Shown here in pieces: positions 4,104-34,737 of a stretch of 64,000 nucleotides of DNA (positions within the stretch are counted from its first letter, which is position 1; the number at the start of each line of letters is the position of its first letter). This DNA comes from Cupriavidus sp. P-10 (lineage in GTDB: Bacteria > Pseudomonadota > Gammaproteobacteria > Burkholderiales > Burkholderiaceae), in NCBI RefSeq assembly GCF_003402535.2, contig NZ_AP025172.1, forward strand, positions 868,001 to 932,000, written 5' to 3'. The notes under the pieces were generated by a model. That model was not told the origin of the DNA. It saw only the letters and a list, made by a program, of their open reading frames with translations, and searched no databases. The translations under genes and the position numbers were made by a program.

Positions 4104-7037
4104 TCACGATCCTGTCGCACGCTGCCAGGGCGCCGCTTCGAGCAGCATGTCCTGGTACTGCTCAAGGGGAAATCGCAACGTGCCCCGAAAGTTCACATGC
4201 GACGAATGCGCCGGCCCCATTCGTCGCAGCCAATCGTCGTCGACTCGCTGTCCCTTGCCACGCCACGCGTCGACTGTCGCTTGCATGCGCTGCGTGTTCC
4301 AGGCAATCACCAGGTTCGTCAGCAGGGTCAAGGAGCCAGAAATCGCGATCATTTCGTCACGACGACGGCCGCGCTCCGGCGTGACCTTTCCCGTATAGAT
4401 CGTACGCTGGAGCTCGTGCACCGACTCACCGCGACTGAGTAGTGCATGTAGTTCTCGGCGAAACTCGACGTTGCTGAAATAGTCGCACAGGAACAGGGTG
4501 CGCAGCAGCTTGCCAAGTTGTTCCGCCGCCCGATAAATCGGATCTCCTTGGGCTGCGCTGCCGAATCGCTGCAACGCGACCACAGCGCTGACACGCCCTG
4601 ACTTGATTGATGCAACGAGCCGCAGCAGCCCGTCCCAGCCGTCGCGAATAGGCTTCAGTGAGATACCATGATCCACTATGGGAGCAAGATCTTTGGCTAT
4701 CTCCATACCCCGTGGCAGATAGAGCTTGCGCTCCGACAAATTGCGTAGCCGCGGGCATAGATCGAAGCCGAGCAGCTTCGATACGGCCATCCCCATAATC
4801 GTATATCCATGCGTATCAACGGCAAGCGCGAGAAGGCCGCCGTCTTCGCGCGTGTCGCTGTGGCGCACTGCCCCTTCAATTGCGACCCCCGCCTGGCGCT
4901 CGTTAAGGACGATCGGCTGGTTGTACACGATGCCATGCTGATCCAGGACATGCGTGTAGATACCGACTGCATGCGTGCGCCTACGCGGATCGACACGAGC
5001 ATAAAACAGATGAGGTGAAGTATCCAGGCTCATCGAGTCGCTCGAGGCTCGCTGCCCGCTTCCCCACAACTCCGTGATGGGGTGCGTACGTTGAAACTCA
5101 ACCACGCGCGAGTTGGCTCGCGACAGCCGTCCCGACATCTCAAGCACACGCATTGTGTTCGAAATCGCCGCAGCATCGACTTGCTGAATCATAGCGGCAA
5201 CGCCTTTCGCGTCGATCTCGGTGCCGTGTGCCATCAGTGCACCGTAGAGCGAGACAAGTTCGTTGGCATCGCGTGCCTTCCGTGCCAGCAGTACTTCGCT
5301 AAAGCTCGTGTGGACATCCACTTCCATCATCAGATCCGCAAACTGAGCTGTGCCGATCGCCTTGAACAGCAGGTCGCGTGTGCGCCTCGGTACCCCGTCC
5401 GTCGGTAGCGCCTCAAGTGCCGAGAGGTGCAGAGCGCCATCCTTGCCGATTGTCACGCGGCCGGCTTCGCGAGCTTCCTCCAGCGCCGCGAGGCCGGCCT
5501 TCAGGTTCTCAGTCAATCGCTCGAGAAAGGGATCCGCTGTAGCTGGTAGACCCAATAACGATAGGTGTCGGCCTCGCTCGGACTCCCAATCTGACGGCGG
5601 AATCAGCATCTGGTCACGTTCACGAAAGGATAGACTGTGGTTGATCCACACCGATCCGCGGCGCAGATCTTTGCGCAAGCTCGTGATCGCGGCGGCTTCC
5701 AAAGCGCGCAGTGCACGTTTACGATCGTCGCAGTCGACCATGGCGCGCCAGTTGGCGCTAATCGGCACTCCGTGGTCAATGGGCAACTCCGTCGCGCCGC
5801 TAACGCGCAGCCTGGCGATAAGCTCGAGTTGCTGCAGGCTTGGTTCTGCCTCTCGGCCCGATAATTCCAGTTCACATAGGGGTGCAAGGAGACTACGGAT
5901 GCGCCGGTTGTCATCAGTCAGCGTTTCGCGCACGCTGGCTGCATGGCTGGCGGGAGGCTTGTCCTGTAGTTCCCCAAGCAGTGCTTCAATATCTGCAAGT
6001 CGGGCTTCCGCCGGACGCGTATTGTCGCGAACGAGCGCTTTGATCGCAACCAGTTGTTGTCGGTATTCAACTGCCGAGCGAGCCTGTTTCGTTGTGGTCT
6101 TGTTGTAAGCGTACCGAACCAGATCGGAAACGCGACGTCCGATTTGATAGAGCAGCGAATCGGTCAACTCGAGCAGTGTCACGCGTAGAAAAAACACCAC
6201 CTCAAGCGTGCGCGTCGACACCTTGAGCTCGCGGGTCTTCACCGGACGGCGCGCCTGAATCCGCTGTGCCCAGGCACGCTGCTTATCGATCGGCACGGTG
6301 TCCAGCGTCCACGTGTGTACCCCGATCTCCTTGAGATACTGAATCTTCTCCACGGTTTCTGTGAGCGTCGTCGGACTGTGCCGGGCCGGCGGCGTCTTGA
6401 GCCACTCGAGAACGGCCATGCCTGCGGGCTCGTGTTGGCTCGATAGTTCTGCATCAGCGCGCACCAGTTGCGTCTCAGGAATGGTCGCCCCGATCAGATC
6501 GAGCGTGTGACGCTCGATCTCCGCCCAGATCGATCGTCCAAGATCCCGCAGGGTTCGGTCGGCGGGAATCAGAATCTTGCGCTCGTACAGCCAGTAGTGC
6601 GCGTGTTGAAGCAGTTCGTCGAGCGTGAGCGATTCTTTGGCATCCTGGCGCATCCATGCTTCGAGCTCCGCCCACTGGTCCAGGCTGATCGACTTCAAGC
6701 CCAGATACCCGCAGGCCCAGATCAGGTGGTCATAGAGCGTCTTGTACCGGCGATATAGAGTCCGGAGCGATGCGATCGTCGGCGTCGGTAGGCCGAGCCG
6801 CTGGCCGACATAGTGAAGCAACTGGCGCGGCAGTGTACTTACCTGGCCGAGGCTATGCCCACTTGCGCGCAGAAATACCAGTTGGATGGCCGCGCCAGCG
6901 CGCCGATCGGTCCGAAAGCGCTCATTGAGCACTGCGACGTCACTGTCGGTCAATGCAAAGTACCGCTCGACATCGAATTCCGACAGCCGCATCGGCAGCC
7001 GGTCACTTCCCACATAGCGAAATCCCAAGCCCGGCAT
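4104..7037 (-). CDS. tnpA: Tn3-family transposase TnpA
   Basis: 977 residues, the normal length for Tn3-family DDE transposases. The N-terminal DUF4158-like DNA-binding part (about 1-170) includes RYFALTDSDV. Catalytic residues are readable at D667 (ASSDSMSLD), D741 (LAVDTHGYT) and E871 (SRGESVHELQ), with spacing close to that known for Tn3 and Tn4430. The C-terminus carries the family hallmark LTLLTNLVIAWNT. It acts on the 41-bp repeats at 2505 and 7203 to form cointegrates. The frame is intact. Confidence 0.95.
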   Translation of the reverse strand: MPGLGFRYVGSDRLPMRLSEFDVERYFALTDSDVAVLNERFRTDRRAGAAIQLVFLRASGHSLGQVSTLPRQLLHYVGQRLGLPTPTIASLRTLYRRYKTLYDHLIWACGYLGLKSISLDQWAELEAWMRQDAKESLTLDELLQHAHYWLYERKILIPADRTLRDLGRSIWAEIERHTLDLIGATIPETQLVRADAELSSQHEPAGMAVLEWLKTPPARHSPTTLTETVEKIQYLKEIGVHTWTLDTVPIDKQRAWAQRIQARRPVKTRELKVSTRTLEVVFFLRVTLLELTDSLLYQIGRRVSDLVRYAYNKTTTKQARSAVEYRQQLVAIKALVRDNTRPAEARLADIEALLGELQDKPPASHAASVRETLTDDNRRIRSLLAPLCELELSGREAEPSLQQLELIARLRVSGATELPIDHGVPISANWRAMVDCDDRKRALRALEAAAITSLRKDLRRGSVWINHSLSFRERDQMLIPPSDWESERGRHLSLLGLPATADPFLERLTENLKAGLAALEEAREAGRVTIGKDGALHLSALEALPTDGVPRRTRDLLFKAIGTAQFADLMMEVDVHTSFSEVLLARKARDANELVSLYGALMAHGTEIDAKGVAAMIQQVDAAAISNTMRVLEMSGRLSRANSRVVEFQRTHPITELWGSGQRASSDSMSLDTSPHLFYARVDPRRRTHAVGIYTHVLDQHGIVYNQPIVLNERQAGVAIEGAVRHSDTREDGGLLALAVDTHGYTIMGMAVSKLLGFDLCPRLRNLSERKLYLPRGMEIAKDLAPIVDHGISLKPIRDGWDGLLRLVASIKSGRVSAVVALQRFGSAAQGDPIYRAAEQLGKLLRTLFLCDYFSNVEFRRELHALLSRGESVHELQRTIYTGKVTPERGRRRDEMIAISGSLTLLTNLVIAWNTQRMQATVDAWRGKGQRVDDDWLRRMGPAHSSHVNFRGTLRFPLEQYQDMLLEAAPWQRATGS

Positions 7038-17867: not shown

Positions 17868-20800
17868 TCACCAGGTATATCGGACGCCGACGTCACCCCA
17901 CACCCCCTTGCGCTGTCCACTCTCGGAACTGTTGAGCGTGAACTGATAGCCGAACTGGCCATACACGTTCATCCGGGAATCTAGTTTGGCAGTGAAGCCT
18001 GCCGAGACATCCATACGCGTCACCTGCTGCGAGAGCGGAACCTGATTGACGCCGTCAAATATTGTCGCTGCCCGAGCACCCCAGTCACGCCAGATATTGG
18101 TGCGCACATAGGGCTGCCACACCTGTCCGTTCGCACGGTCAATGCTCCATTGCCCACGAACGCCAACCCGTCCCGTAACACCCGAAGTCGAGCCGAGGTC
18201 GACCGAACCCAGCCCGTCTTTGGCTTCATTCAAGCTGACATGCTGCCAAATGAGCTGCACCTGCGGCTCCAGTACGAAGCCGGGACCAAGGGGCAACGGT
18301 ACCGGATAGCCTGCTTCGAGCGAGGTGGCGATCGCTGAGCCGGATACGGGAAGTCGTGCGAACTGCGTCGTGGCATGTCCGTCGTAGGATGTGCCCTGGA
18401 GCACCGCGTCAACATACCATCCGCCGGGACCGTAGTGCGTCCAGTAAGCGCCGCCGGAGTAGGCGTCCAGGCTGACGGAGCCGGTATGGTCGCGGACATA
18501 CGCCGTTGCCGCGGCGTTGGTCACCAGGCCATCGACGCTGGCGCTGGCATTGCCGTAGGAGAAGTAGACACCGGCCGTGTCGTGATGGCCCGGCAGGAAG
18601 CCGCCACGCCAGACGTCGAGGCCGGCCTGGAAGCCAGCCAGCGACCCACCTGTACCCGGCGCGGTGAACGCCTGATAGCGATTGTCGAGTTGCTGGCCGA
18701 ACACCCGCCCCCAGCCGGAGCGTCCCCAGCCGGCACTGCTGCCGCCAGCTTGTGTCTCGGCGAGAGTATTGCCAATGCGCTCGTGCAGTGTGCCGAGCGT
18801 GGTGAGCCCGAGCTGGCGCGCGATCGGCTGTACCACACCATAGGTGGCAAGCTCCGGGCCGATGATCGGGAACCTGCCGGGTCCCAATTGCGCGGGAGGT
18901 GGATCGACCGGCAGGACGCTGCTTGGCGGCGTTGCCGGCAGCTCCTGTTGCGGTCCCACGATGAAGTGAGAGCGCAAGAACCAGTCGTCCGGTCCGCTCC
19001 CGTCAGTGCCGCCTCTGAATAGCCGATAGTCGAAGGCGCCCGCGCGCAGTTCTCCCGGCAGGACGAAAGCCTGCGTACCAGTCGTGGCGCCGTTGACTGC
19101 CTGCACGACCGGGATGCCGTTGCCCTGGGTCAGCGCACCGGTTAGCCCGGTCGGATGCACGACGACCGTGCTCGTGCCACTGGTGGTGCCGCCGTCGAGC
19201 ACCAGGCGGCTTGACGGCGAGGCGTCGGAACCGAGCAGCGTGTTGAAAACGACCTGTCCCTCGGGGTCGGCATAGCCGCCCCGGATGGTCAGTGCCCCAT
19301 ATCCCGTATCGCCGGCCACCGGATTGCCCGGCCAAACCACACCCTGGTTTATCACATTGCCCACCATGCCGGACCCGGCCAGCGTACTGCCAGGCAGCAC
19401 CGTCACAGACGAACGGATCGAGCCGTTGACGATCAGCGTGCCGCTTTGCACCATGGTCGGGCCGCTGTAAGTACTGGCACCGGTGAGCACAGTGGAGCCG
19501 GTACCCCGCTGCGCGAGTGCGCCGGCGCCGGAGATCACGCCGTCGAAGGTGAGCGTGTCGCTGCGGTTGAACGCCAGCGTCCCGTTATTGGTCACGTCGC
19601 CGACGATGTTGCCGCTGGTTCCGCCATTGCCGAGTTGCAGCGTACCGGCACTGATGGTCGTACCGCCATTGTAGGTATTGGCCGCGGTAAGTACAGTGGT
19701 GCCGGTGCCAAGGTGGCGTACTGCGCCGGAGCCAGAGATGATGCCTGGGAAGACAAGCGTGTCGGCACGGTTGAACGCCAGCGTCCCGTTGTCAACCACA
19801 TCACCAACGATGTTGCCGCTGGCCCCACCGTTGCCAAGCTGCAGCGTGCCGGCGCTGATGGTTGTGCCACCCGTATAAGTGCTGCTTGCGGTAAGTACCG
19901 TGGTGCCTGTGCCAAGCTGCGTCACGGCGCCGGTTCCGGAGACAACGCCATCGAATGTCAAAGCATCCGAACGGTTGAATGAAAGCGTGCCGTTATCTGT
20001 CACGTTGCCGGCGATACTGCCGCCGGTACCGCCGTTGCCCAGTTGCAGCGTGCCGGCACTGATGGTCGTATCACCGCTGTACGTGTTGCCCGCGGTGAAA
20101 ATCGTCGTGCCTGCGCCAAGTTGAGCGACGGCACCGGTGCCGGAGATGACGCCGCCGAAGATCACTGTGTCTGTACGGTTGAAGGCAAGCATGCCGTTGT
20201 CGGTGACGTTGCCGGTAATGCTGCCGCTGGTTCCGCCGTCGCCGAGCTGCAGCGTGCCCGCGCTGATCGTCGTACCGCCCGAGTAGGTGCTGTTTCCGGT
20301 CAAGGTCAGCGCTCCTGCACCTTGCTTCGTGAGCGAGCCTGTCCCGCTGATGACGCCGCTGTAGGTCGGTGAATCGCTCCGGTTATAGATCAACGCAGCG
20401 TTGTCGACGATGTTGCCGCTGACGCTGCCTGTCGTACCGCCGTTACCGATTTGCAGGATGCCTGCACTGATTGTGGTGCCACCGGTGTATGTGTTTTCGC
20501 CCGTCAGCGCCCACAGCCCGGCGCCTGTTTTGACAAGTGACGATGCGCCGCCATTATCGCCAAGGACGGCGGCCAGTATGTTGGCGCCGGCATTGGTGCC
20601 GGTGAGGGTCAATGTGCGGGATCCCATCTCGCCATTGAAGCCGATTGCCCCGCTATTGGTGAACGTCAACGCACCGGTACCGGAGGCATCGATCGTGCCG
20701 CTGCTCCCGCCCAGACTGAACAATCGATCCGTGCTCGCGCCTGCACCGGTGTACTGCAGGGTGCCGCCATCGAGGACGAGATTGGTCGCAGCATTGGACG

Positions 20801-21881
20801 ACATGCCTATGTTGCTGGCAACACCACCATCGGCGAGCTCGGATACGCTGAGAATCCCCCCGTTGATAATCGTGGCACCGGTGTAAGTATTATTGAAGGT
20901 CAACATCGCCGTACCCGGTCCGGCCTTCGTTACGGTGCCGCCGTTCCACAGTAGTGAACTCACCAGCAAACTGCTGCTGGAACCGAGGGTATTCAGCGTA
21001 AGACCGCGAAAGTTCAGATTTAATCCAGCGCCGGAGGAACTGATTACCTTGTCCTGCGCACCACCCGTCGCGGCGATCGTCAGATTTCCTGACAGCACCA
21101 CACCACCAAAATTGTTAGGCCCGGTTGTCCCGGTGAAATCCACAGTTCCGCCACCAGCCGTATCAAAGGTGATGGTCCCGCGAATATCCTCCCGGTTGAT
21201 GGCATTGACGATCAGCGTCGAAGGCCCATTCACAAAAAAAGCTGTTGATCGTATTGCCGAGGCCACTGTCGGCGAAGCAAAGCTCAGGGTTGCTCCGTTC
21301 GAGATGGTCGTCGGTCCCGTATAAGAAATGGAGCCCAGTGAAGCAAGCGTGACATTACCGGCGGAGACAGTGAGCCCCCCGCTTCCGCTGATCGTTCCGG
21401 TAACCGATGAGGTACCCGTTGAATTGAACACCAGCCCGCCACCCACGCTATATGTGCCAGCCAGGGAAACATTTATCCCCTGGAAGGTCAACGAACTGGG
21501 GCTAGTGCCTGTCACATTGACGTTTGAAGCATCGGCAATATCGCCTGTTGCGACGAGCGCCACATTGCTGGTGCCCAGTTCAGCACCCAATTGCCCGTCG
21601 GTGATGGTCCCATTGCTTGAAGAAGGCAATCCATTGATCTCACTGCTCGTGCTGCCGCCCGCTGCGCCGCTAACAATGGAGATATTCGATGCCGCCGCGT
21701 GCTGGCATACCGTGCACGCAAGGAGGGCTACCGCCGAACGCCTTCGCCTGCGGGCCCCGCCAGATGGTGCTACCGCTCCTATCGAACAACCTCCCTTCCC
21801 GCAACTGCGAGCGGTCTCCGCCACTATGACGGGACTCGCGGCCTTCCTGCTGAAGACGATGCGGAAGATGTTCTTGTTCAT
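17868..21881 (-). CDS. Autotransporter with PATR repeats (type Va secretion)
   Basis: About 1337 residues. ATG 21881 is chosen because GGAG precedes it and it opens the extended signal peptide region (MNKNIFRIVFSRKAASPVIV) followed by a hydrophobic core ending in AAAS. The passenger is Gly/Ser/Thr-rich beta-helix with autotransporter-associated strand repeats; five near-identical units of about 67 residues (TYxGGTTISAGTLQLGNGG...) lie in its second half. A proline-rich linker (LPATPPSSVLPVDPPPAQ) precedes the C-terminal beta-barrel (about 260 residues) ending in VRYTW, the expected aromatic C-terminus for BAM recognition. Surface adhesin or enzyme-free passenger; ligand unknown. Confidence 0.93.
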   Translation of the reverse strand: MNKNIFRIVFSRKAASPVIVAETARSCGKGGCSIGAVAPSGGARRRRRSAVALLACTVCQHAAASNISIVSGAAGGSTSSEINGLPSSSNGTITDGQLGAELGTSNVALVATGDIADASNVNVTGTSPSSLTFQGINVSLAGTYSVGGGLVFNSTGTSSVTGTISGSGGLTVSAGNVTLASLGSISYTGPTTISNGATLSFASPTVASAIRSTAFFVNGPSTLIVNAINREDIRGTITFDTAGGGTVDFTGTTGPNNFGGVVLSGNLTIAATGGAQDKVISSSGAGLNLNFRGLTLNTLGSSSSLLVSSLLWNGGTVTKAGPGTAMLTFNNTYTGATIINGGILSVSELADGGVASNIGMSSNAATNLVLDGGTLQYTGAGASTDRLFSLGGSSGTIDASGTGALTFTNSGAIGFNGEMGSRTLTLTGTNAGANILAAVLGDNGGASSLVKTGAGLWALTGENTYTGGTTISAGILQIGNGGTTGSVSGNIVDNAALIYNRSDSPTYSGVISGTGSLTKQGAGALTLTGNSTYSGGTTISAGTLQLGDGGTSGSITGNVTDNGMLAFNRTDTVIFGGVISGTGAVAQLGAGTTIFTAGNTYSGDTTISAGTLQLGNGGTGGSIAGNVTDNGTLSFNRSDALTFDGVVSGTGAVTQLGTGTTVLTASSTYTGGTTISAGTLQLGNGGASGNIVGDVVDNGTLAFNRADTLVFPGIISGSGAVRHLGTGTTVLTAANTYNGGTTISAGTLQLGNGGTSGNIVGDVTNNGTLAFNRSDTLTFDGVISGAGALAQRGTGSTVLTGASTYSGPTMVQSGTLIVNGSIRSSVTVLPGSTLAGSGMVGNVINQGVVWPGNPVAGDTGYGALTIRGGYADPEGQVVFNTLLGSDASPSSRLVLDGGTTSGTSTVVVHPTGLTGALTQGNGIPVVQAVNGATTGTQAFVLPGELRAGAFDYRLFRGGTDGSGPDDWFLRSHFIVGPQQELPATPPSSVLPVDPPPAQLGPGRFPIIGPELATYGVVQPIARQLGLTTLGTLHERIGNTLAETQAGGSSAGWGRSGWGRVFGQQLDNRYQAFTAPGTGGSLAGFQAGLDVWRGGFLPGHHDTAGVYFSYGNASASVDGLVTNAAATAYVRDHTGSVSLDAYSGGAYWTHYGPGGWYVDAVLQGTSYDGHATTQFARLPVSGSAIATSLEAGYPVPLPLGPGFVLEPQVQLIWQHVSLNEAKDGLGSVDLGSTSGVTGRVGVRGQWSIDRANGQVWQPYVRTNIWRDWGARAATIFDGVNQVPLSQQVTRMDVSAGFTAKLDSRMNVYGQFGYQFTLNSSESGQRKGVWGDVGVRYTW
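19460..20500 (-). repeat. Five tandem ~201-bp repeats inside the autotransporter gene
   Basis: In-frame direct repeats encoding TTISAGTLQLGNGG..GNIVGDV.DNGTLAFNRSDTLTFDGVISG. units. Sequence drift between units is small, suggesting recent expansion or homogenisation. Because each unit is a multiple of three, gain or loss would keep the frame. Confidence 0.8.
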
Positions 21882-22472
21882 ACCAGTTACTCCGGACCGG
21901 TACAGCGATGCTTGCCTCAGACACAACGGGTGGGACTGGCGTGACCCTCAGGCGGCAATGAGCAACCATGACACTTTGTTTGGAGCTGTTCTACCCTTCG
22001 GTGATCAGGCCCTCTCTTTCAGCTTATCGAACTGAGTGTAGGCTGGCAGGCCGGGCAATTGGGTCGGCAGAGCCATTGATCTTGAGGGGATAAGCCGTTT
22101 CTGTGCGATTGGCAACGGTCAGAGGCCGCGAAATGGGACGCCCTTTCACAGGTTGAAATGTGGTTCACCCTGCTCACTTACTAGCGCTCTGCGGCGGTTG
22201 GCCAGGCGCGCTTGCCGGCCAGCACCTGCTGCGACACAAAAATCGCAATCGGGTGTTTCAAGTGACGTGCTGGGGCACTGTCGCACTGAACGTTGGCGCC
22301 ATGGTGCATTGGCGATCCGTCATGGCGGTCTGAGGAAGGAAGAGCCGATGGCCGGGATCGGTGCGAATTATGACTATCCAGGAATCATGAAGCCGCCTTG
22401 CAATGCCGGCTTGCAAGGCCATCCAGCGATGACTCTGCCAGATCGTCGGGGTGGGTGTACTAGACCAATCGC
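21882..22472. other. Gene-free stretch upstream of the autotransporter
   Basis: About 590 bases. It should hold the autotransporter promoter at its left edge. No ORF here has both a ribosome binding site and recognisable composition, and no clear repeat was found. Confidence 0.45.
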
Positions 22473-24343: not shown

Positions 24344-25744
24344 TCATCGGGGCGGGTTGCCGACCATGTCGGCCGGGCGCACCCATTCGTCGAACTGTTG
24401 TTCGGTCACATAGCCGAGCGTGAGTGCGGCCGCTTTCAGCGTCGTGCCTTCCTTGTGCGCCTTCTTAGCGATCTGTGCGGCTTTGTCGTAACCGATGTGA
24501 GGATTCAGGGCGGTCACCAACATGAGCGACTCGTTGAGCAGCATGTCGATGCGTGCGCGGTTTGGCTCAATGCCGACCGCGCAGTGATCGTTGAAGCTCT
24601 GCGCACCATCCGTGAGCAGGCGGACAGATTGCAGCACGTTGTGCGCAATCATCGGCCGAAACACGTTCAACTCGAAGTTGCCGCTCGCGCCTCCGAAGTT
24701 CACCGCGACGTCGTTGCCGAATACCTGGCAGCACAGCATCGTCACCGCCTCGGACTGCGTAGGGTTCACCTTTCCGGGCATGATTGAACTGCCCGGCTCG
24801 TTTTCCGGAATCGACAGCTCCCCTAGGCCGCAGCGCGGGCCACTCGCGAGCCAGCGGATGTCGTTAACGATCTTCATCATGCTGGCGGCGACTGTCTTTA
24901 ATGCGCCGTGCACGAACACGAGTGCGTCGGCGGCGGCCATTACCTCAAACTTGTTCTGAGCGGACACGAATGGAAGGCCCGTTAGCTTACCGATCACTGC
25001 GGCGACCTTGTCCGCGAACTGCGGATGAGCGTTTAGCCCGGTTCCGACCGCGGTGCCGCCCTGCGCGAGCTGATAGAGATGCGGCAGCGCCGATTCGACA
25101 TGCGCGATCCCCTGGTCGAGCTGAGCGACGTAGCCGGAAAACTCCTGGCCGAGGGTGAGTGGCGTCGCGTCTTGTAGATGCGTGCGGCCAATCTTCACGA
25201 TGTCTGCGAACGCCTTTGACTTCTGGTCGAGCGTCACACGCAGCGTTTTTAGTGCAGGCAGCAGGCGCAGGACGATCCCGTACGCGGCGGCGACGTGCAT
25301 AGCGGTCGGAAACACGTCGTTAGACGACTGGCCACGATTCACATCGTCGTTCGGATGGATCTTGCGCGCTTCGCCGCGCTCCCCGCCAAGGAGCTCGCTC
25401 GCGCGGTTCGCAATCACCTCGTTCAGGTTCATGTTGGTCTGCGTGCCGGAGCCGGTCTGCCAGACCGCAAGCGGAAACTCGTCCGGGTGTTTCTCAGCGA
25501 TAATCTCGTCGGCCGCCTCGATAATCGCACGTGCCTTCTGCTCGTCGAGCACGCCAAGTTCGTGGTTGACTTCGGCCGCCGCACGCTTGATCCACGCGAT
25601 AGCAACGATCAGCTCGGGCGACTGCTTTTCAGTCGAAATGCTGAAGTTCTGCAGCGAGCGCTGGGTCTGCGCGCCCCAAAAATGCGCGGCGGGCACGGCG
25701 ATTTCGCCGAATGTGTCGCGCTCCATCCTTACGGTATCAGTCAT
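24344..25744 (-). CDS. fumC: Class II fumarate hydratase
   Basis: 466 residues, normal for FumC. It interconverts fumarate and L-malate without an iron-sulfur cluster. Signature [13 protein letters not shown] (about residues 315-327), the [11 protein letters not shown] active-site segment and [12 protein letters not shown] are present. The start at 25744 ([10 protein letters not shown]) has GGAG upstream. It is last in a run with the NuoF-like, flavoprotein and iron-sulfur genes, about 106 bases behind the NuoF-like gene, supporting a role in supplying or removing fumarate for that reductase. Confidence 0.95.
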
Positions 25745-25850
25745 CGTTAATCTCCGCTGTATAGCCTCATCCGGCAATTTCTCCTGGCTGCGGTGAAGAT
25801 TTTCTGCACTCCGGAACTCGCAGGAGACAGGCCGGGTCGGCTTCTGGGCC

Positions 25851-27095
25851 TTACGCCATCAAAAGCGCCTCGTATTCTTCCCGGAACTGATCCAGGGAGC
25901 TGTTCACCACCGTCACGGCGCCATCGATCAGGCCGCAGCGCCCGCTGCCGGGAAGGATGCGGCACAGGTTTTCCAACGCTTCCACGTCCGCGCGCACGCC
26001 GCGGCCGGTATCGATCCGATTGAGCAGCCGCATCAGCTGGAAGGTCCCGCCCTTGCATGGCGGGCACTGGCCGCACGAACCCTGGGCGAAGAAGCTCACA
26101 TACTCGGCCACCTTGCGGACGATGCTGGTTCCTTCCGACACCACGATCATCGCGCCGGTCCCCAACCGCGAGCGCCGCTGCCGCACTGAATCGAAGTCCA
26201 GTGCCACGTCGAGGTCGCGCTTGGTCAGCAGGGTATTGGAAGGACCGCCCGTAAAGACCGCCTTGAATTCCTTGCCCTGGAGCATGCCGCCGCCATGCCC
26301 GAACACCAGCGTCTCCAGGCTCGTGCCCATCGGCAGCTCATACAGCCCGGGCCGCAACACGTCGCCCGACAGCGAATACAGCTTCGTGCCCGCCGCATTG
26401 CCGGTGCCGAGGCTGCGATACCACTGCGCTCCGTGGCGCAGGATGCCGGGCACGTGGGCCAGCGTCTCGGTGTTGTTGACGACCGTCGGCGCGCCATGCA
26501 CCCCGTGCTGGGCGGGAAAAGGCGGCTTGCGGCGCGGAAACGGGAACCCGCCCTCCACGCTCGCGATGACCGCGGTCTCCTCGCCACCGATGTACAAGCC
26601 CGAGCTCGGCACCACGCTGAGCGATACCGGCCCGCCGACCAGTTGCGCCAGCTCGGCGAACTGCGCGTGCCCCTGCCACTGCTGCACCGCCTGGCGCGTC
26701 CTGTCCAGCGCCAGTGGCTGGTGCGGATTGACGTACAGGACGACGTGGTTGGCACGGGTGGCGGCCGCGGCGATCAGCGCGCCCTCTATCACCTGGTGCG
26801 GCGTATGTTCCAGCAGGAACCGGTCCTTGAAGGTTCCCGGCTCGTCTTCATTGCCATTGCAGATGATGTATTTGTCGCCATCGGCGGCAGCGGCCACCGG
26901 CGTCCACTTGCGATGCGTCGCGAAGCCGGCGCCGCCCATCCCGCGCAGGTCCGCCTGTTCGATTTCTGCAATGATCGTGGCCGGATCGCGCAGCGCCCTG
27001 GCCAGCCCCTCTCCGCCGCCCCGCGCAAGCCAGCCATCCAGGTCCGCACCGACGCGGATATCCTCGTTGAGGAGTACCTGATTCAGGTGTTCCAT
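25851..27095 (-). CDS. NuoF-like NADH-oxidising flavoprotein (51-kDa subunit family)
   Basis: 414 residues. NADH and FMN site: [14 protein letters not shown] (near 52), [13 protein letters not shown] (near 81) and [17 protein letters not shown]. The C-terminus carries a 4Fe-4S motif, [11 protein letters not shown] plus a fourth Cys in RCGLIDGAV. This is the module that takes hydride from NADH in complex I and NAD-linked hydrogenases and formate dehydrogenases. No NuoE-like partner is encoded nearby. ATG 27095 has GGAG upstream and lies 20 bases after the flavoprotein stop, so electrons are probably passed to that reductase. Confidence 0.88.
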
Positions 27096-27114
27096 CGCGC
27101 GCTCCGTGGGTCGA

Positions 27115-28764
27115 TCACCGCGTGCCGCCGACCGTGCGGCCGCGTACGCCGGAGCGCAATCCGGCATCGTCGCGCAGATCGAAATGGGCGTAACCGGGGA
27201 ACAGCTGCGGTGCCTTGACATGCAGTGGCAGGCCGGCCAGCGTCAGTTCCCGCTGCCACGCATGCACGTGGCCGATCCCGGCGCGCACGGCCATCCCAGC
27301 GCGCCCCGCTTGCGCCGCGCTGGCACCGGCACGCCGGCCCATGCTCAGGATGTCGAGCAGCGCGTTGCCCATCAGCCGGTTGCGCCCGTGGATGCCGCCC
27401 GTAACCTCGCCCACGCAGTAAAGGCCCGGCACGCTCGTTGCGCTTTCCTTGTCGATGGCAACGCCACCATTCTGGTAGTGCAGGGTCGGATAGACCAGGA
27501 AAGGCTCCTGCGCCGCGTCCTGCCCGCACTTGTGCGCCAGATGGCGCAGCGTGACCAGCCGCTTGGCGAGGATGCCGGGATTCTCCATTTCGAGCGTCGG
27601 CGTGTCGAGGAACACCCCGACCTGTCCGCCCCGCTCGATGCCGCGGCCCTGCGCGCACTCGCGCAGGATGGCCGAGGCCACGATGTCCCGGGGCTTGAGT
27701 TCATCGACAAAGCGCTCGCCCTCGCCGTTGAGCAGCCGGGCGCCCGCCGAGCGCGCCGCTTCCGAGATCAGGCCGCCCGCCAGGTGCGGCGGGTAGGCGA
27801 TGCCGGTGGGGTGGTACTGGAACGAATCGAGCTCGCGCAGGCGCGCCCCGAGGCGATAGGCAAGCACCAGGCCGTCCGCGGTGGCGCCGTAGTGATTGGA
27901 GGTGGGGAAGCTGTTCAGGTGCAGGCGCCCCGCCCCGCCGGTGGCGAGAATCACGGCACGCGCGCGCACCAGCATGAAGGTTCGCCATTCGAGGTTGTAG
28001 ATCACGGCGCCGGCGCAGCGGCCCCGTTCGTCGGACAGCAGCTCGACCGCGGGGCAGCGGTTCCACACCGCAACCCCCGGTTCCAGGTCCACGGCCTCGC
28101 GCAGCACGCGCATCATCTCCAGCCCGGTGTAGTCCCGATAGGACAGGATGCGCGCGGCCGACGCCCCGCCTGGCTTCTTGCGCAGCAGGTTGCCGCCAAA
28201 GGGCCGGTCCTCTTCCTGGTCAAACATCATGCCCAGCCGGATCAGCCAGCGGATGACATCGGGCCCGTCCATCACCATCTGCGCAACCAGTTCCGGCTCG
28301 CCGCGGAAATGACCGGCGCGCAATGTGTCCTCGAAGTGCAGCTGGGGACTGTCATCCTCGCCGATGGCCGCCTGGATGCCGCCCTCGGCCATCACGGTAT
28401 TGCTGTCGCCAAGGCGCAGCTTGGTGGCCAGGATCACCTGTGCGCCCTGCCCGGCCGCCGTGAGCGCTGCCGCGCAGCCGCCTCCGCCGCCGCCGATGAT
28501 CAGCACATCGGTGGAGACGAGTTGGGCGCCGGCAATGTCGACATCGTCAATCAGCGCATTAGCCTGCAGACAGCGCGCAAGATCCGGCTGGCAGGGCTCG
28601 CCGCGGTTCACGCCAACGGCCAGCGCAACGCGCGCATTGGGACCGTGGTCTGGGTGATAGCCCTTGAGCAGCGCTTCGACGCTGTCGTCGTCGCTGCGCA
28701 TCGCTGTCGCGACGCCGGGCCGGTACCGCCGGCGCGCTTCATCGTATGGGATGCCGGTTGGCAT
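27115..28764 (-). CDS. Fumarate reductase/succinate dehydrogenase-type flavoprotein
   Basis: 549 residues. An unusual N-terminal extension of about 85 residues precedes the FAD Rossmann motif VLIIGGGGGGCAAALTAAG. Substrate-site hallmarks are present: SFQYHPTGIAYP, GLISEAARSAGARLLN and GERFVDELKPRD. The segment that in SdhA/FrdA holds the covalent-FAD histidine (SHTVAAQGG) here reads SNTVMAEGG, so FAD is probably noncovalent, as in L-aspartate oxidase and soluble fumarate reductases. No membrane anchor genes accompany it. It sits between the iron-sulfur and NuoF-like genes. L-aspartate oxidase activity is less likely given those partners. Confidence 0.85.
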   Translation of the reverse strand: MPTGIPYDEARRRYRPGVATAMRSDDDSVEALLKGYHPDHGPNARVALAVGVNRGEPCQPDLARCLQANALIDDVDIAGAQLVSTDVLIIGGGGGGCAAALTAAGQGAQVILATKLRLGDSNTVMAEGGIQAAIGEDDSPQLHFEDTLRAGHFRGEPELVAQMVMDGPDVIRWLIRLGMMFDQEEDRPFGGNLLRKKPGGASAARILSYRDYTGLEMMRVLREAVDLEPGVAVWNRCPAVELLSDERGRCAGAVIYNLEWRTFMLVRARAVILATGGAGRLHLNSFPTSNHYGATADGLVLAYRLGARLRELDSFQYHPTGIAYPPHLAGGLISEAARSAGARLLNGEGERFVDELKPRDIVASAILRECAQGRGIERGGQVGVFLDTPTLEMENPGILAKRLVTLRHLAHKCGQDAAQEPFLVYPTLHYQNGGVAIDKESATSVPGLYCVGEVTGGIHGRNRLMGNALLDILSMGRRAGASAAQAGRAGMAVRAGIGHVHAWQRELTLAGLPLHVKAPQLFPGYAHFDLRDDAGLRSGVRGRTVGGTR

Positions 28765-28779
28765 GTTTGTCTGCCCCCG

Positions 28780-29418
28780 TCAGCGCGGCGGCTGCGCGCC
28801 TGGTGCGTCAAAGTCGATCGTCATCGCGCCGCTTTCGATCTGTTGCAGGCGCAGCATGAGATTGGCGGGCCGCAGCGTCTGGGCCGCGATCATGCGCCGC
28901 ACGAACAGGCCGAGATGGTTGGGGCGGATATGCTCGGGGCAGGCCAGCGTGCAGAGGTTGCACATGACACATTCGTCGAAGACCTGGCTGGCGGCGCTGA
29001 GCTTGCCCTCCACGGCGAACTGCACGCCCTGCTGGACCGCCAGCTCCTTCGGACAGGCGCGGTCGCAACCGCTGCAGTGGCGGCAATGGGCGGCCTCGGG
29101 GAACACCGTGGAAATCGTCCGCAAGGCTTCCCAGCTCTCGCCGACCTCCTCCATGCGATAGACGTGCCGCTCCGACGCCGTGAAGTAGTCCAGGAACGCG
29201 ACCTGCATGCCGTCTTCCACCAGCGTCTCGCAGGCCAGCGCCGTGCGTACATCCTGCTCGCCGCTGCGCCGCACCATGACCCGGCACGAGCCGCAGACGC
29301 CCTGGCCCATGCAGCCCACGCCTTCAACCAGCGTCTCCCCTGCGTGCAGGAAGGCCTGCAGGATGGAACAGTTTGCCGGTGCCTCGAGCTGCCGCCCTTC
29401 CACGCTCAGACGTACCAT
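28780..29418 (-). CDS. Iron-sulfur subunit (2Fe-2S plus two 4Fe-4S) of the reductase
   Basis: 212 residues. The N-terminal plant-type ferredoxin domain has GCMGQGVCGSCRV and ACET (2Fe-2S). The C-terminal alpha-helical ferredoxin domain has CRHCSGCDRACP and CVMCNLCTLACP, two complete CxxCxxCxxxCP motifs, so two 4Fe-4S clusters rather than the 4Fe-4S/3Fe-4S pair of classic SdhB. It is first in the operon, 15 bases before the flavoprotein gene. It probably wires the NuoF-like subunit to the FAD subunit. Confidence 0.87.
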   Translation of the reverse strand: MVRLSVEGRQLEAPANCSILQAFLHAGETLVEGVGCMGQGVCGSCRVMVRRSGEQDVRTALACETLVEDGMQVAFLDYFTASERHVYRMEEVGESWEALRTISTVFPEAAHCRHCSGCDRACPKELAVQQGVQFAVEGKLSAASQVFDECVMCNLCTLACPEHIRPNHLGLFVRRMIAAQTLRPANLMLRLQQIESGAMTIDFDAPGAQPPR

Positions 29419-29449
29419 TGTGCACTCTGTGGTATGGGGGACGCCAAAT

Positions 29450-29468
29450 GCACACTGGCGCCATGTGC
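29450..29468. promoter_or_regulatory. Near-palindrome in the divergent reductase/transporter promoter region
   Basis: GCACA-C-TGGCGCCA-TGTGC: a central 8-bp palindrome with GCACA/TGTGC arms and one extra base on the left. It lies 32 bases from the iron-sulfur gene and 58 from the transporter start. A related TTGTGCAC occurs at about 29418. It probably binds a regulator controlling both directions; the regulator is not encoded adjacently. Confidence 0.45.
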
Positions 29469-29525
29469 GAAAAGATCATATAAAAAACCATAGCACACCG
29501 AAGGTCTTTGCCTAGGGGAAGTCGC

Positions 29526-30968
29526 ATGAAGACGATGTGGAAGCCGCTTGCGCCGGTGATTGCAGCGATCTTGGTCGCGCTGGCCCCCGCCCCGGAGGGA
29601 CTACAACAGCACACGTGGTTCTACTTCGCCATCTTCATTGGCGTGATTGTCGGGCTGATGCTTGAGCCCATTCCCGGTGCGGCCATCGGGCTGATCGCCG
29701 TGACCGTCGTGACGGTCTTCTGCGAATGGGTGTTCTACAGTCCCGAGCAGCTCGCGAAGCCTGGCTTCAACCCGGCGAACGCCGCCCTCGCCTGGGCGCT
29801 TTCCGGTTTCGCCAACAGCACGGTGTGGCTGATCTTTGGCGCCTTCATGTTCGCGCTGGGATACGAAAAGACCGGCCTGGGCAGGCGCATCGCCTTGCTG
29901 CTGGTGCGGGCGATGGGCCGCAAGACGCTCACGCTGGGCTATGCGGTGATGATGGCCGATGCGTTGCTGGCGCCCTTCACCCCTTCAAATACGGCGCGCA
30001 GCGGCGGCACGATCTTTCCCGTGATCCGCAACCTGCCGCCGCTCTATGACTCGAAGCCGAACGATCCGTCGGCGCGGCGGATCGGGTCGTACATCATGTG
30101 GACCGCGATCGCCACCACGTGCGTGACCAGTTCGATGTTCCTTACCGCGCTGGCGCCCAACCTGCTCGCCGCCGAGCTGATCCGCAAGACCGCCCAGGTC
30201 GACCTGAGCTGGATGCAGTGGTTCATGGCCTTCGCGCCCGTGGGGATCCTGCTGTTGCTGGCCGTGCCGCTGCTCGCGTACCTGCTGTATCCGCCGGAAG
30301 TGAAGCAAGGCACCGAAGTGCCGGCCTGGGCGGCGCAAGAACTCCAGAAGATGGGCCCGCCAAGCCGGCGCGAGCTTCTGCTCGGGGTCCTGGTGCTGAT
30401 CGCCCTGGCGCTGTGGATATTCGGGGACAAGCACGTCAATGCGACCACTGCGGCCCTGATGGTCATTGGCCTGATGCTGGTGACCGGTGTCGTGACCTGG
30501 GACGACATGCTCGCCAACAAGCAGGCCTGGAACACCCTGGCCTGGTTTGCGACACTGATCGCGCTGGCGGACGGCCTGAGCCGGACCGGCTTCGTCAAGT
30601 GGTTCTCCGACACCATGGCAGGCCACATGAGCGGCTTTCCGCCACTGGCGGCGGTAGTGATCCTGGTGCTGGTCTTCTACTTCACGCATTACATGTTCGC
30701 CAGCGTCACCGCCCATACGACGGCAATGCTTCCGGTCATGCTCAGCGTCGGCTCCACCATTCCCGGCATGCCAATGGAAGCGTTTGCGCTGATGCTGGCC
30801 CTCACGCTGGGCCTGATGGGCATCCTCACACCGTACGGCACCGGGCCCAGCCCGGTCTATTTCGGCAGCGGCTACCTCCCCGCCGGCGATTACTGGAGGC
30901 TTGGCGCAATCTTTGGGGTCATCTACATCGTTGTATTCCTGTTGATCGGCGTGCCGCTCTTGTTCTGA
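29526..30968 (+). CDS. DASS-family (SLC13-like) dicarboxylate transporter
   Basis: About 480 residues with 11-12 predicted membrane segments. The DASS substrate motif APFTPSNTARSGGTIFPV lies near residue 155 and a second, YGTGPSPVYFGSGY, near the C-terminus. It imports di- or tricarboxylates with sodium or by antiport. ATG 29526 follows AGGGGAAG; the earlier start would overlap that site. Divergent orientation from the fumarate-reductase operon suggests it feeds that pathway. Confidence 0.9.
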   Translation: MKTMWKPLAPVIAAILVALAPAPEGLQQHTWFYFAIFIGVIVGLMLEPIPGAAIGLIAVTVVTVFCEWVFYSPEQLAKPGFNPANAALAWALSGFANSTVWLIFGAFMFALGYEKTGLGRRIALLLVRAMGRKTLTLGYAVMMADALLAPFTPSNTARSGGTIFPVIRNLPPLYDSKPNDPSARRIGSYIMWTAIATTCVTSSMFLTALAPNLLAAELIRKTAQVDLSWMQWFMAFAPVGILLLLAVPLLAYLLYPPEVKQGTEVPAWAAQELQKMGPPSRRELLLGVLVLIALALWIFGDKHVNATTAALMVIGLMLVTGVVTWDDMLANKQAWNTLAWFATLIALADGLSRTGFVKWFSDTMAGHMSGFPPLAAVVILVLVFYFTHYMFASVTAHTTAMLPVMLSVGSTIPGMPMEAFALMLALTLGLMGILTPYGTGPSPVYFGSGYLPAGDYWRLGAIFGVIYIVVFLLIGVPLLF

Positions 30969-33231: not shown

Positions 33232-34737
33232 ATGCTCACAAGACTGAAAGCGGCGTTCAGCTACTTCAATAGCGTGGTCCCGTTCCGGCTGGGACCCGCC
33301 CTGATCACGACGGCCGTGCTGGTCACCCTGCTGCTGGTGCCGGTGCCAGAGGGGCTTACGCCCAAGGCCTGGGGCCTGGTTGCCATCTTTCTGACAACCA
33401 TCGTCGCGATCATCCTGAAGGTCATGCCGATCGGGGTGATGGCGATGATGGCGATCGTGGTCCTGTCGCTGTCGCAGGTGACTTCGACCTCGTCCAAGGG
33501 CGCGATCGCCGATGCGCTGACCGCCTTCGACAATCCGCTGATCTGGTTGATCGTGGTGGCGATCCTGATTTCCCGCGGCGTGAAGAAGACCGGCCTGGGC
33601 ACCCGTATCGGCCTGATTTTCATCTCCCTGATGGGGAAACGGACGATAGGCATCGGCTACGGTCTGGTCACGTGTGAACTGGTACTGGCGCCCTTCACGC
33701 CGAGCAATACCGCGCGCGGTGGCGGCATCGTGCATCCGATCATGAAGTCGATCGCCAACGCATTCGACTCCGACCCGGCCACGGGCACCGAGGGCAAGGT
33801 CGGCACCTACCTGGCGTTGGTCAACTATCACGCCAACCCTATCTCGTCGGCGATGTTCGTGACCGCCACCGCCCCGAACCCGCTGGTGGTGGACTACATC
33901 GCCAAGGCGACCAATCAGAATCTGCATCTGAGCTGGACGGACTGGGCGCTTTGCATGTTGGTGCCCGGCCTGCTATGTATGCTGCTGATGCCGCTGGTGA
34001 TCTATGTGTTGTCGCCGCCGCAGCTCAAGGCCACACCCAACGCGGTGGAATACGCGCACGCCGAGCTTGCAAAGATGGGGCCTGTGTCGCCGAAGGAAAT
34101 GGTCATGATTTTCACCTTCGCGCTGCTGCTGCTACTGTGGGCCAACGTTCCGGCGATGCTGTTCGGTCCGGCGCTAACGCTGGACCCGACGGTGGTCGCC
34201 TTGGTCGGCCTGTTCGTGCTGATCATTACCGGCACCATCGACTGGGATGACGTGCTGTCCGAGAAGAGCGCCTGGGACACGCTGATCTGGTTCGGTGCGC
34301 TGATCATGCTGGCCGAGCAACTGAACAAGCAGGGTGTGATCGGGTGGTTCTCTAAGGGCATGAGCGACGCGATCGTGGCCAGCGGCATTGGCTGGGGCGG
34401 CACGGCCGCGATCCTGGTGGCGGTCTTCGTTTTCTCGCACTACCTGTTTGCCAGCACGACGGCGCACATCAGTGCGATGATGCTCGCCTTCCTGACGGTC
34501 GGAGTCCATCTGATACCGCCAGCGTATGTGGTGCCGTTCATGCTGCTGATGGCGGCCGGCTCGGCGATCATGATGACGCTGACCCACTATGCGACGGGCA
34601 CCTCGCCGATCATCTTCGGCAGCGGCTTTGTCACGATGGGAACCTGGTGGCGCGTCGGTTTTGTGATGTGCGTGGTGGAGCTGCTGATCTTTGCCGTGGT
34701 CGGGAGCGTCTGGTGGAAAGTGCTTGGCTTCTGGTGA
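33232..34737 (+). CDS. Second DASS-family anion transporter
   Basis: 501 residues with about 12 membrane segments. APFTPSNTARGGGIVHPI near residue 157 and YATGTSPIIFGSGFV near residue 450 are the paired DASS motifs. It is related to, but clearly diverged from, the transporter at 29526. GGAAGG precedes ATG 33232. Substrate is probably a di- or tricarboxylate such as succinate, malate, citrate or tartrate. Confidence 0.9.
   Translation: MLTRLKAAFSYFNSVVPFRLGPALITTAVLVTLLLVPVPEGLTPKAWGLVAIFLTTIVAIILKVMPIGVMAMMAIVVLSLSQVTSTSSKGAIADALTAFDNPLIWLIVVAILISRGVKKTGLGTRIGLIFISLMGKRTIGIGYGLVTCELVLAPFTPSNTARGGGIVHPIMKSIANAFDSDPATGTEGKVGTYLALVNYHANPISSAMFVTATAPNPLVVDYIAKATNQNLHLSWTDWALCMLVPGLLCMLLMPLVIYVLSPPQLKATPNAVEYAHAELAKMGPVSPKEMVMIFTFALLLLLWANVPAMLFGPALTLDPTVVALVGLFVLIITGTIDWDDVLSEKSAWDTLIWFGALIMLAEQLNKQGVIGWFSKGMSDAIVASGIGWGGTAAILVAVFVFSHYLFASTTAHISAMMLAFLTVGVHLIPPAYVVPFMLLMAAGSAIMMTLTHYATGTSPIIFGSGFVTMGTWWRVGFVMCVVELLIFAVVGSVWWKVLGFW

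Follow-up and report, generated by a model that had tools for sequence, protein, structure and literature searches.

A probable soluble NADH:fumarate reductase with a NuoF-like subunit in Cupriavidus sp. P-10

What reaction is carried out by a flavoprotein of the fumarate reductase type that is encoded beside an NADH-binding subunit and apart from any membrane anchor? The question is raised by a gene series in a stretch of 64,000 nucleotides of Cupriavidus sp. P-10 (the window; positions 868,001 to 932,000 of NZ_AP025172.1), which is part of contig C3 in a genome of 9.08 Mb. On the minus strand, the series runs from an iron-sulfur subunit (FS, 28780..29418) through an FrdA-like catalytic flavoprotein (FP, 27115..28764) and a NuoF-like subunit (25851..27095) to a class II fumarase (fumC, 24344..25744), with gaps of 15, 19, and 106 base pairs, respectively, whereas a transporter gene of the DASS family (DASS1, about 29526..30968) is divergent, on the plus strand. 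These genes and strands, recorded in an earlier note on this DNA, are confirmed here with refined coordinates. The open reading frame of the NuoF-like subunit as listed from 27221 overlaps FP and is too long, since alignment with a Pseudoroseomonas homologue places the start at the ATG at 27095. It is very likely that FS, FP, and the NuoF-like subunit form a soluble cytoplasmic, quinone-free, non-bifurcating NADH:fumarate oxidoreductase; a complex of this kind had been proposed in the earlier note, and gene content, conserved residues, co-occurrence, and recurrent neighbours all support it.

In such an enzyme, NADH would reduce a flavin mononucleotide (FMN) on the NuoF-like subunit, and electrons would pass from the [4Fe-4S] cluster of that subunit, via two [4Fe-4S] clusters and one [2Fe-2S] cluster of FS, to a non-covalent flavin adenine dinucleotide (FAD) on FP, where fumarate would be reduced to succinate. 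The reaction would need neither quinone nor membrane anchor nor ferredoxin partner, so it would conserve no energy and would reoxidise NADH. As the earlier note had stated, anchors of the SdhC/D type are absent: no such Pfam family was matched among the 17 window proteins scanned, and no transmembrane-like stretch is present in FS, FP, or the NuoF-like subunit (highest 19-residue hydropathy 1.08, 1.52, and 1.27, respectively). In this Cupriavidus, FumC could supply fumarate from malate, and the CitT/TtdT-like transporter would probably swap the incoming substrate for succinate. The role of the enzyme may be redox relief during growth on C4-dicarboxylates, or service beside 2-oxoacid oxidoreductases.

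FS comprises 212 amino acids, with an N-terminal 2Fe-2S domain and two CX2CX2CX3C motifs (Fer2_4 and 4Fe-4S dicluster domains in Pfam), and its closest named relative is found in Cupriavidus oxalaticus (96%). Both motifs are present in all 124 members counted, those with a short FS match being left aside. The score against the SdhB/FrdB model TIGR00384 is 25.0 bits, below the cut-off of 88, and the predicted fold resembles HdrC (C-terminal part), as well as the N terminus of NuoG. In databases, the name acetyl-CoA decarbonylase/synthase alpha subunit is attached to some FS homologues, probably as a carry-over from a CdhA-like ferredoxin domain.

FP (549 amino acids, Pfam FAD_binding_2; 97% to its closest named relative, also from C. 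oxalaticus) starts with an extension of about 85 residues that precedes the FAD domain, which begins at residue 86. This extension, described in the earlier note, is a real feature of the protein, with an invariant HPD and other invariant residues in five diverse members. The motif SNTVMAEGG stands where E. coli FrdA and SdhA have SHTV, and the asparagine replacing the histidine of covalent FAD attachment is a family trait, found in 33 of 33 aligned rows and in all 130 members (124 by pattern, the other six by eye). In E. coli FrdA, loss of this histidine abolishes covalent FAD binding and impairs succinate oxidation more than fumarate reduction. The residues equivalent to FrdA H232, E245, R287, H355, and R390, which we take to be catalytic, are retained in all 33 rows of the alignment.

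FP scores below the NCBIfam cut-offs of both SdhA/FrdA (TIGR01812, 275.7 vs 567.3 bits) and NadB (TIGR00551, 287.3 vs 452.75 bits). Its best-scoring NCBIfam model is that of the methanogen thiol:fumarate reductase TfrA (NF004900), again at 326.3 bits against a cut-off of 718. In a maximum-likelihood tree of 44 rows, from which the own-genome row L008 was left out, a single clade with a stem of 1.55 (100/100) unites the 33 FP rows and excludes those of NadB and SdhA/FrdA, and the ten FP rows from loci with NuoF group together as one clade inside it (100/99); for this tree and for that of the NuoF-like subunit, the program warned of long outgroup branches. The best Foldseek match of the AlphaFold2 model (predicted template modelling score 0.80) is E. 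coli FrdA (E 1.7e-29, TM-score about 0.6). With its N-terminal extension, asparagine motif, and adjoining FS gene, FP fits the FS-FP fumarate reductase family. By these sequence criteria FP represents a family of its own, neither L-aspartate oxidase nor SdhA/FrdA; an ordinary SdhA/FrdA is ruled out by the score below the TIGR01812 cut-off, the asparagine, and the separate clade.

The NuoF-like subunit (414 amino acids) contains the Complex1_51K (PF01512, 143.5 bits, cut-off 31.2), NADH_4Fe-4S (PF10589, 82.8 bits, cut-off 23.5), and SLBB domains of Pfam, and remains below the cut-off of the complex I NuoF model (TIGR01959, 390.2 vs 558.65 bits). Its 26 rows are united in a single clade (100/100), to the exclusion of E. 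coli NuoF and of three other NuoF homologues of the same genome, with very long outgroup branches. That clade, together with an occurrence tied to FS/FP loci, rules out a stray complex I gene.

Of 200 Burkholderiaceae genomes, 12 have the FS gene, and the same 12, that of Cupriavidus sp. P-10 included, have the NuoF-like gene; the arrangement is therefore not due to chance. Among 300 genomes sampled from the order, 13 are positive for FP: besides our genome, nine carry NuoF, and three (L212-L214) carry Hdr genes and no NuoF beside FP. The NuoF-like gene is present in 10 of the 300, and these coincide with the ten genomes that have an FS-FP-NuoF locus. The donor module, Hdr or NuoF, differs within this one order. 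Genes of the KorA type lie beside three of the nine NuoF loci (L209-L211) and all three Hdr loci (L212-L214), and L209 contains an additional separate, weakly similar Hdr-like cluster. Of the 274 genomes in the class sample, nine carry the NuoF-like gene (again counting our own), and all eight new ones adjoin FP; in L231 the contig ends before FS. The family, order, and class samples thus contribute 28 other loci, all with the NuoF-like gene beside FP, and the scattering of this gene over unrelated contexts, which the earlier note had named as a finding that would speak against its proposal, is not observed; nor does FP cluster with L-aspartate oxidase, which had been named there to the same effect. 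With three loci from a plasmid collection (L031, L032, and L034), the inspected NuoF-type loci from beyond our genome number 31, and NuoF is next to FP in every one; some of them may be repeats. In the megaplasmid record of Cupriavidus metallidurans CH34, the operon is present at one place.

A transporter of the DASS, DctA, or AspT type, malic enzyme, or fumarase is matched within about 10 kb in 15 of these 31 loci, and eight others have KorA. Class I fumarase is present in L203-L205 (alpha-type domain in L204, 204 vs a cut-off of 101) and malic enzyme in L173-L175 (672 vs 326 bits in L173, where an aspartate-alanine antiporter scores 562 vs 547 bits), DctA scores 734 vs 513 bits in L031, and the 2-oxoacid oxidoreductase of L209 scores 628 against a cut-off of 483. 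In L160, succinyl-CoA ligase reaches 601 against 370, and the lactate/malate dehydrogenase-like protein of L165 remains below the cut-offs.

The transporter of the Cupriavidus locus had been described as a dicarboxylate importer. DASS1 (TIGR00785, 532.4 bits, cut-off 198.6) resembles succinate antiporters instead, with 54% identity to the citrate:succinate antiporter CitT and 53% to the tartrate:succinate antiporter TtdT of E. coli, and probably exports succinate in exchange for the substrate. A second DASS gene (DASS2, 33232..34737, plus strand; 363.2 bits against the same model) encodes a protein with 33-35% identity to CitT and TtdT, and a DASS2-like match is found near FP in L031, L165, L170-L172, and L203-L205, as well as in the copy L009 on contig C2. 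The region between FS and DASS1 (29419..29525) includes, before FS, a stretch around TGTGCTATGGTTTATATGACCTTTTCGG that is similar in several Cupriavidus copies (window, L009, L010, L165, L031, and L170) and is perhaps a promoter.

How far does this arrangement extend beyond the close relatives of Cupriavidus? The 80 named FS-FP loci, the best 80 of 589 relatives when sorted by their resemblance to the protein from Ilyobacter, are a biased sample. FS is the neighbour of FP in 76 of them; in three of the remaining four, FP is near a contig end, and L090 has room and no FS match. Matches to HdrA and HdrB are found in 45 of the 80 (32 of the 38 that span 21 kb or more), and those to fumarase or aspartase in 57 (30 of the 38); NuoF lies beside FP in none of the 80. 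The Ilyobacter genes are ordered aspartase, hdrB, hdrC, hdrA, mvhD, three Flx-like genes (so named from annotation and place), FS, and FP. In the phylum sample, FP is present in 31 of 398 genomes, and wider stretches were examined for 20 of the 30 other than our own. Nineteen of these 20 stretches contain FS, and 19 contain matches to KorA and/or succinyl-CoA synthetase, with no NuoF and no Hdr in any of the 20, so that they yielded no donor gene for this third FS-FP group, that of the 2-oxoacid oxidoreductase/succinyl-CoA synthetase clusters.

Genes of fumarase, aspartase, malic enzyme, succinyl-CoA synthetase, and 2-oxoacid oxidoreductase recur around the family. Judged by gene content, FS-FP is a core of wide distribution whose neighbours can be exchanged, with Hdr-Flx in many anaerobes and NuoF in Cupriavidus. 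Since the same core stands beside Hdr-Flx genes in relatives, FS probably serves as the subunit on which exchangeable donors dock. We lean, with some reserve, towards a broader picture in which FS-FP is a soluble core with alternative plugged-in electron-entry modules. The NuoF form would be its minimal, three-subunit, quinone-free, and non-bifurcating version. Some lineages would use it next to genes of 2-oxoacid oxidoreductases, and Burkholderiaceae, Cupriavidus among them, would combine it with a succinate antiporter into a self-contained NADH sink.

Several known systems can be compared with this locus. A soluble NADH-dependent fumarate reductase with five subunits, FrdABCDE, was reportedly described from Hydrogenobacter thermophilus by Miura in 2008; the reaction type would thus already be known, the likeness to FS-FP-NuoF being one of proposed reaction. 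E. coli FrdABCD and SdhCDAB share with FP the fold and the catalytic residues, whereas the Cupriavidus system has no anchors, no histidine for covalent FAD, and four cysteines in the last FS motif, and its predicted donor is NADH rather than quinol. The "succinate operon" of Pseudoclostridium thermosuccinogenes consists of a fumarate hydratase, an Flx-Hdr complex, and a two-gene fumarate reductase (PMC7282089), and in composition this matches the layout of fumarase, Hdr-Flx genes, FS, and FP in the clostridial FS-FP loci. There, electrons enter through Flx-Hdr, for which bifurcation to ferredoxin has been proposed, in place of the single NuoF-like subunit of Cupriavidus.

In turn, tfrAB, a putative thiol:fumarate reductase, is located among kor and flx-hdr genes in reductive tricarboxylic acid cycle clusters of tubeworm symbionts and Thioflavicoccus (PMC6315080). 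As a two-gene reductase of the soluble type among kor and flx-hdr genes, it is like L212-L214, again in composition; unlike in the Cupriavidus locus, a NuoF-like subunit is not described with it in the accessible text of that paper. The proposed electron input has a counterpart in HydAB of Syntrophus, a non-bifurcating NADH-dependent [FeFe]-hydrogenase (PMC7311640), in which a NuoF-type subunit likewise passes electrons from NADH to a soluble redox enzyme and no ferredoxin takes part, the catalytic subunit there being a hydrogenase. The earlier note knew of no system of exactly this composition. This holds for the NuoF-fed form, of which no description was found in literature searches; the FS-FP core itself is already known beside Flx-Hdr from Pseudoclostridium and the tubeworm symbionts, as judged by composition (PMC7282089, PMC6315080).

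A number of observations weigh against a non-bifurcating NADH:fumarate reductase, and some of them favour other explanations. The phenylalanine near the substrate in FrdA/SdhA is replaced in FP, and the substrate pocket is therefore not identical; this site, which is also that of NadB Glu121, is occupied by proline or alanine in the FP rows from NuoF-type loci and by glycine in the others. Although FumC itself is unequivocal (466 amino acids, TIGR00979, 776.5 bits, cut-off 664.75) and the locus does have its own fumarase, as had been claimed, fumC adjoins only two of the three copies in our genome, and FumC was matched in none of the 31 other NuoF-type loci. It is a local addition and not a conserved operon member. 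Eight of the 31 loci (L032, L169, L206-L208, and L231-L233) have none of the neighbours sought, and the FP model is of moderate confidence (predicted local distance difference test, pLDDT, 75). Furthermore, no FNR-like signal was found in the 26 upstream stretches scanned, where two palindromic sites with two mismatches (L169 and L205) and 4 strand hits compare with about 5.5 expected from the rate in the window, leaving low-oxygen control unsupported.

The replaced pocket residue and the lack of conservation of fumC would both suit an NADH-dependent enzyme whose main substrate is another unsaturated dicarboxylate, e.g., a substituted fumarate, with fumarate as a minor one. We regard this as unlikely, since the genes beside 23 of the 31 NuoF-type loci, namely those of class I fumarase, malic enzyme, C4-dicarboxylate transporters, or 2-oxoacid oxidoreductase, point to fumarate, and the five FrdA catalytic residues are kept.

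A bifurcating or confurcating NuoF form, which would also reduce or oxidise ferredoxin, is very improbable. The same core is found beside Hdr-Flx genes in many anaerobes, and bifurcation has been proposed for such a complex (PMC7282089, PMC6315080). All 26 rows of the NuoF-like subunit contain PGT(F/Y)KDR and GGPSN (row L172, out of frame in one alignment, was ignored there), and GGPSN is one residue away from the GGPSG of bifurcating enzymes, which is present in none. By published criteria for NuoF-type subunits, however, the marks of non-bifurcating enzymes are Thr/Ser and Lys/Ser/Ala in the NADH-site motif, the absence of GGPSG, and Tyr, not Phe, near the FMN site, at T. maritima HydB 367 (PMC7311640). 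The Thr and Lys of the NADH-site motif, as well as the absence of GGPSG, agree with the first two, and bifurcation is rejected on these; the third position could not be located with certainty in the NuoF-like subunit, which is another point against our reading. The subunit has no added cluster domain within its 414 residues. A further point against our reading is that no NuoE-like gene is seen in the operon, in contrast to Syntrophus HydAB, the NuoF-type subunit of which is fused to a NuoE-like part (PMC7311640).

A role of FP in NAD synthesis, as an enzyme like L-aspartate oxidase, the name of many database entries, is barely credible, since FP forms a separate clade, scores well under the NadB cut-off, and lacks Glu121, for which all 33 rows have Gly, Pro, or Ala, and the genome contains its own nadB (L006). 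In two gammaproteobacterial genomes of one genus, L232 (5780-10964) and L233, a NadB-like gene stands immediately upstream of FS-FP-NuoF. Fumarate can serve NadB as an acceptor, and with this placement a link to NAD synthesis is conceivable.

The genes of the proposed NADH:fumarate reductase are present in our genome in three intact copies, and no internal stops are found in the matches of FS, FP, or the NuoF-like subunit. Any two of the FP copies (C3:895118-896764, in the window, C3:426442-428088, and C2:956595-958241) differ in 9 to 12 of their 1647 bases, and their proteins in 0 to 2 amino acids. In the C2 copy (L009 8731-9849), DASS1 is truncated and reads in frame into the next gene, and DASS2 is intact. 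Relatives of the quinone-type SdhB are found at three places, so that FS-FP-NuoF is not the only complex II-like enzyme of this genome. The sdhA region occurs twice (L004, C1:1698694, and L005, C1:2496901; 99.67% identical over 3.3 kb), and sdhB likewise gives two equal matches. L012 (6068-10200, C3:28068-32200) contains an SdhB-like gene (34% to E. coli FrdB), as well as, by eye, a short gene resembling an anchor and one resembling class I fumarase alpha. Its SdhA-like gene is intact, with Cys at the FAD site (GCTRMVQGG); the match at C3:29462 is an open gene of 582 codons, the two stops being upstream of it, and not a broken gene. L012 would thus represent a second, membrane-type fumarate/succinate cluster. 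Elsewhere in the window, the minus strand encodes a large autotransporter (17868-21926) with passenger repeats (PATR) and a beta-domain, and a Tn3-family transposase (4104-7037).

If the proposed function of FS-FP-NuoF is correct, Cupriavidus, Paraburkholderia, and other beta- and gammaproteobacteria would own an unrecognised cytoplasmic NADH sink, now labelled FAD-binding protein or L-aspartate oxidase in databases, and flux models of these bacteria under oxygen limitation would change. The enzyme would also be a compact NADH-linked catalyst for succinate production, and the same catalytic core, fed in one case by NuoF and in the other by Hdr-Flx, would provide a natural pair for assessing what bifurcation adds.

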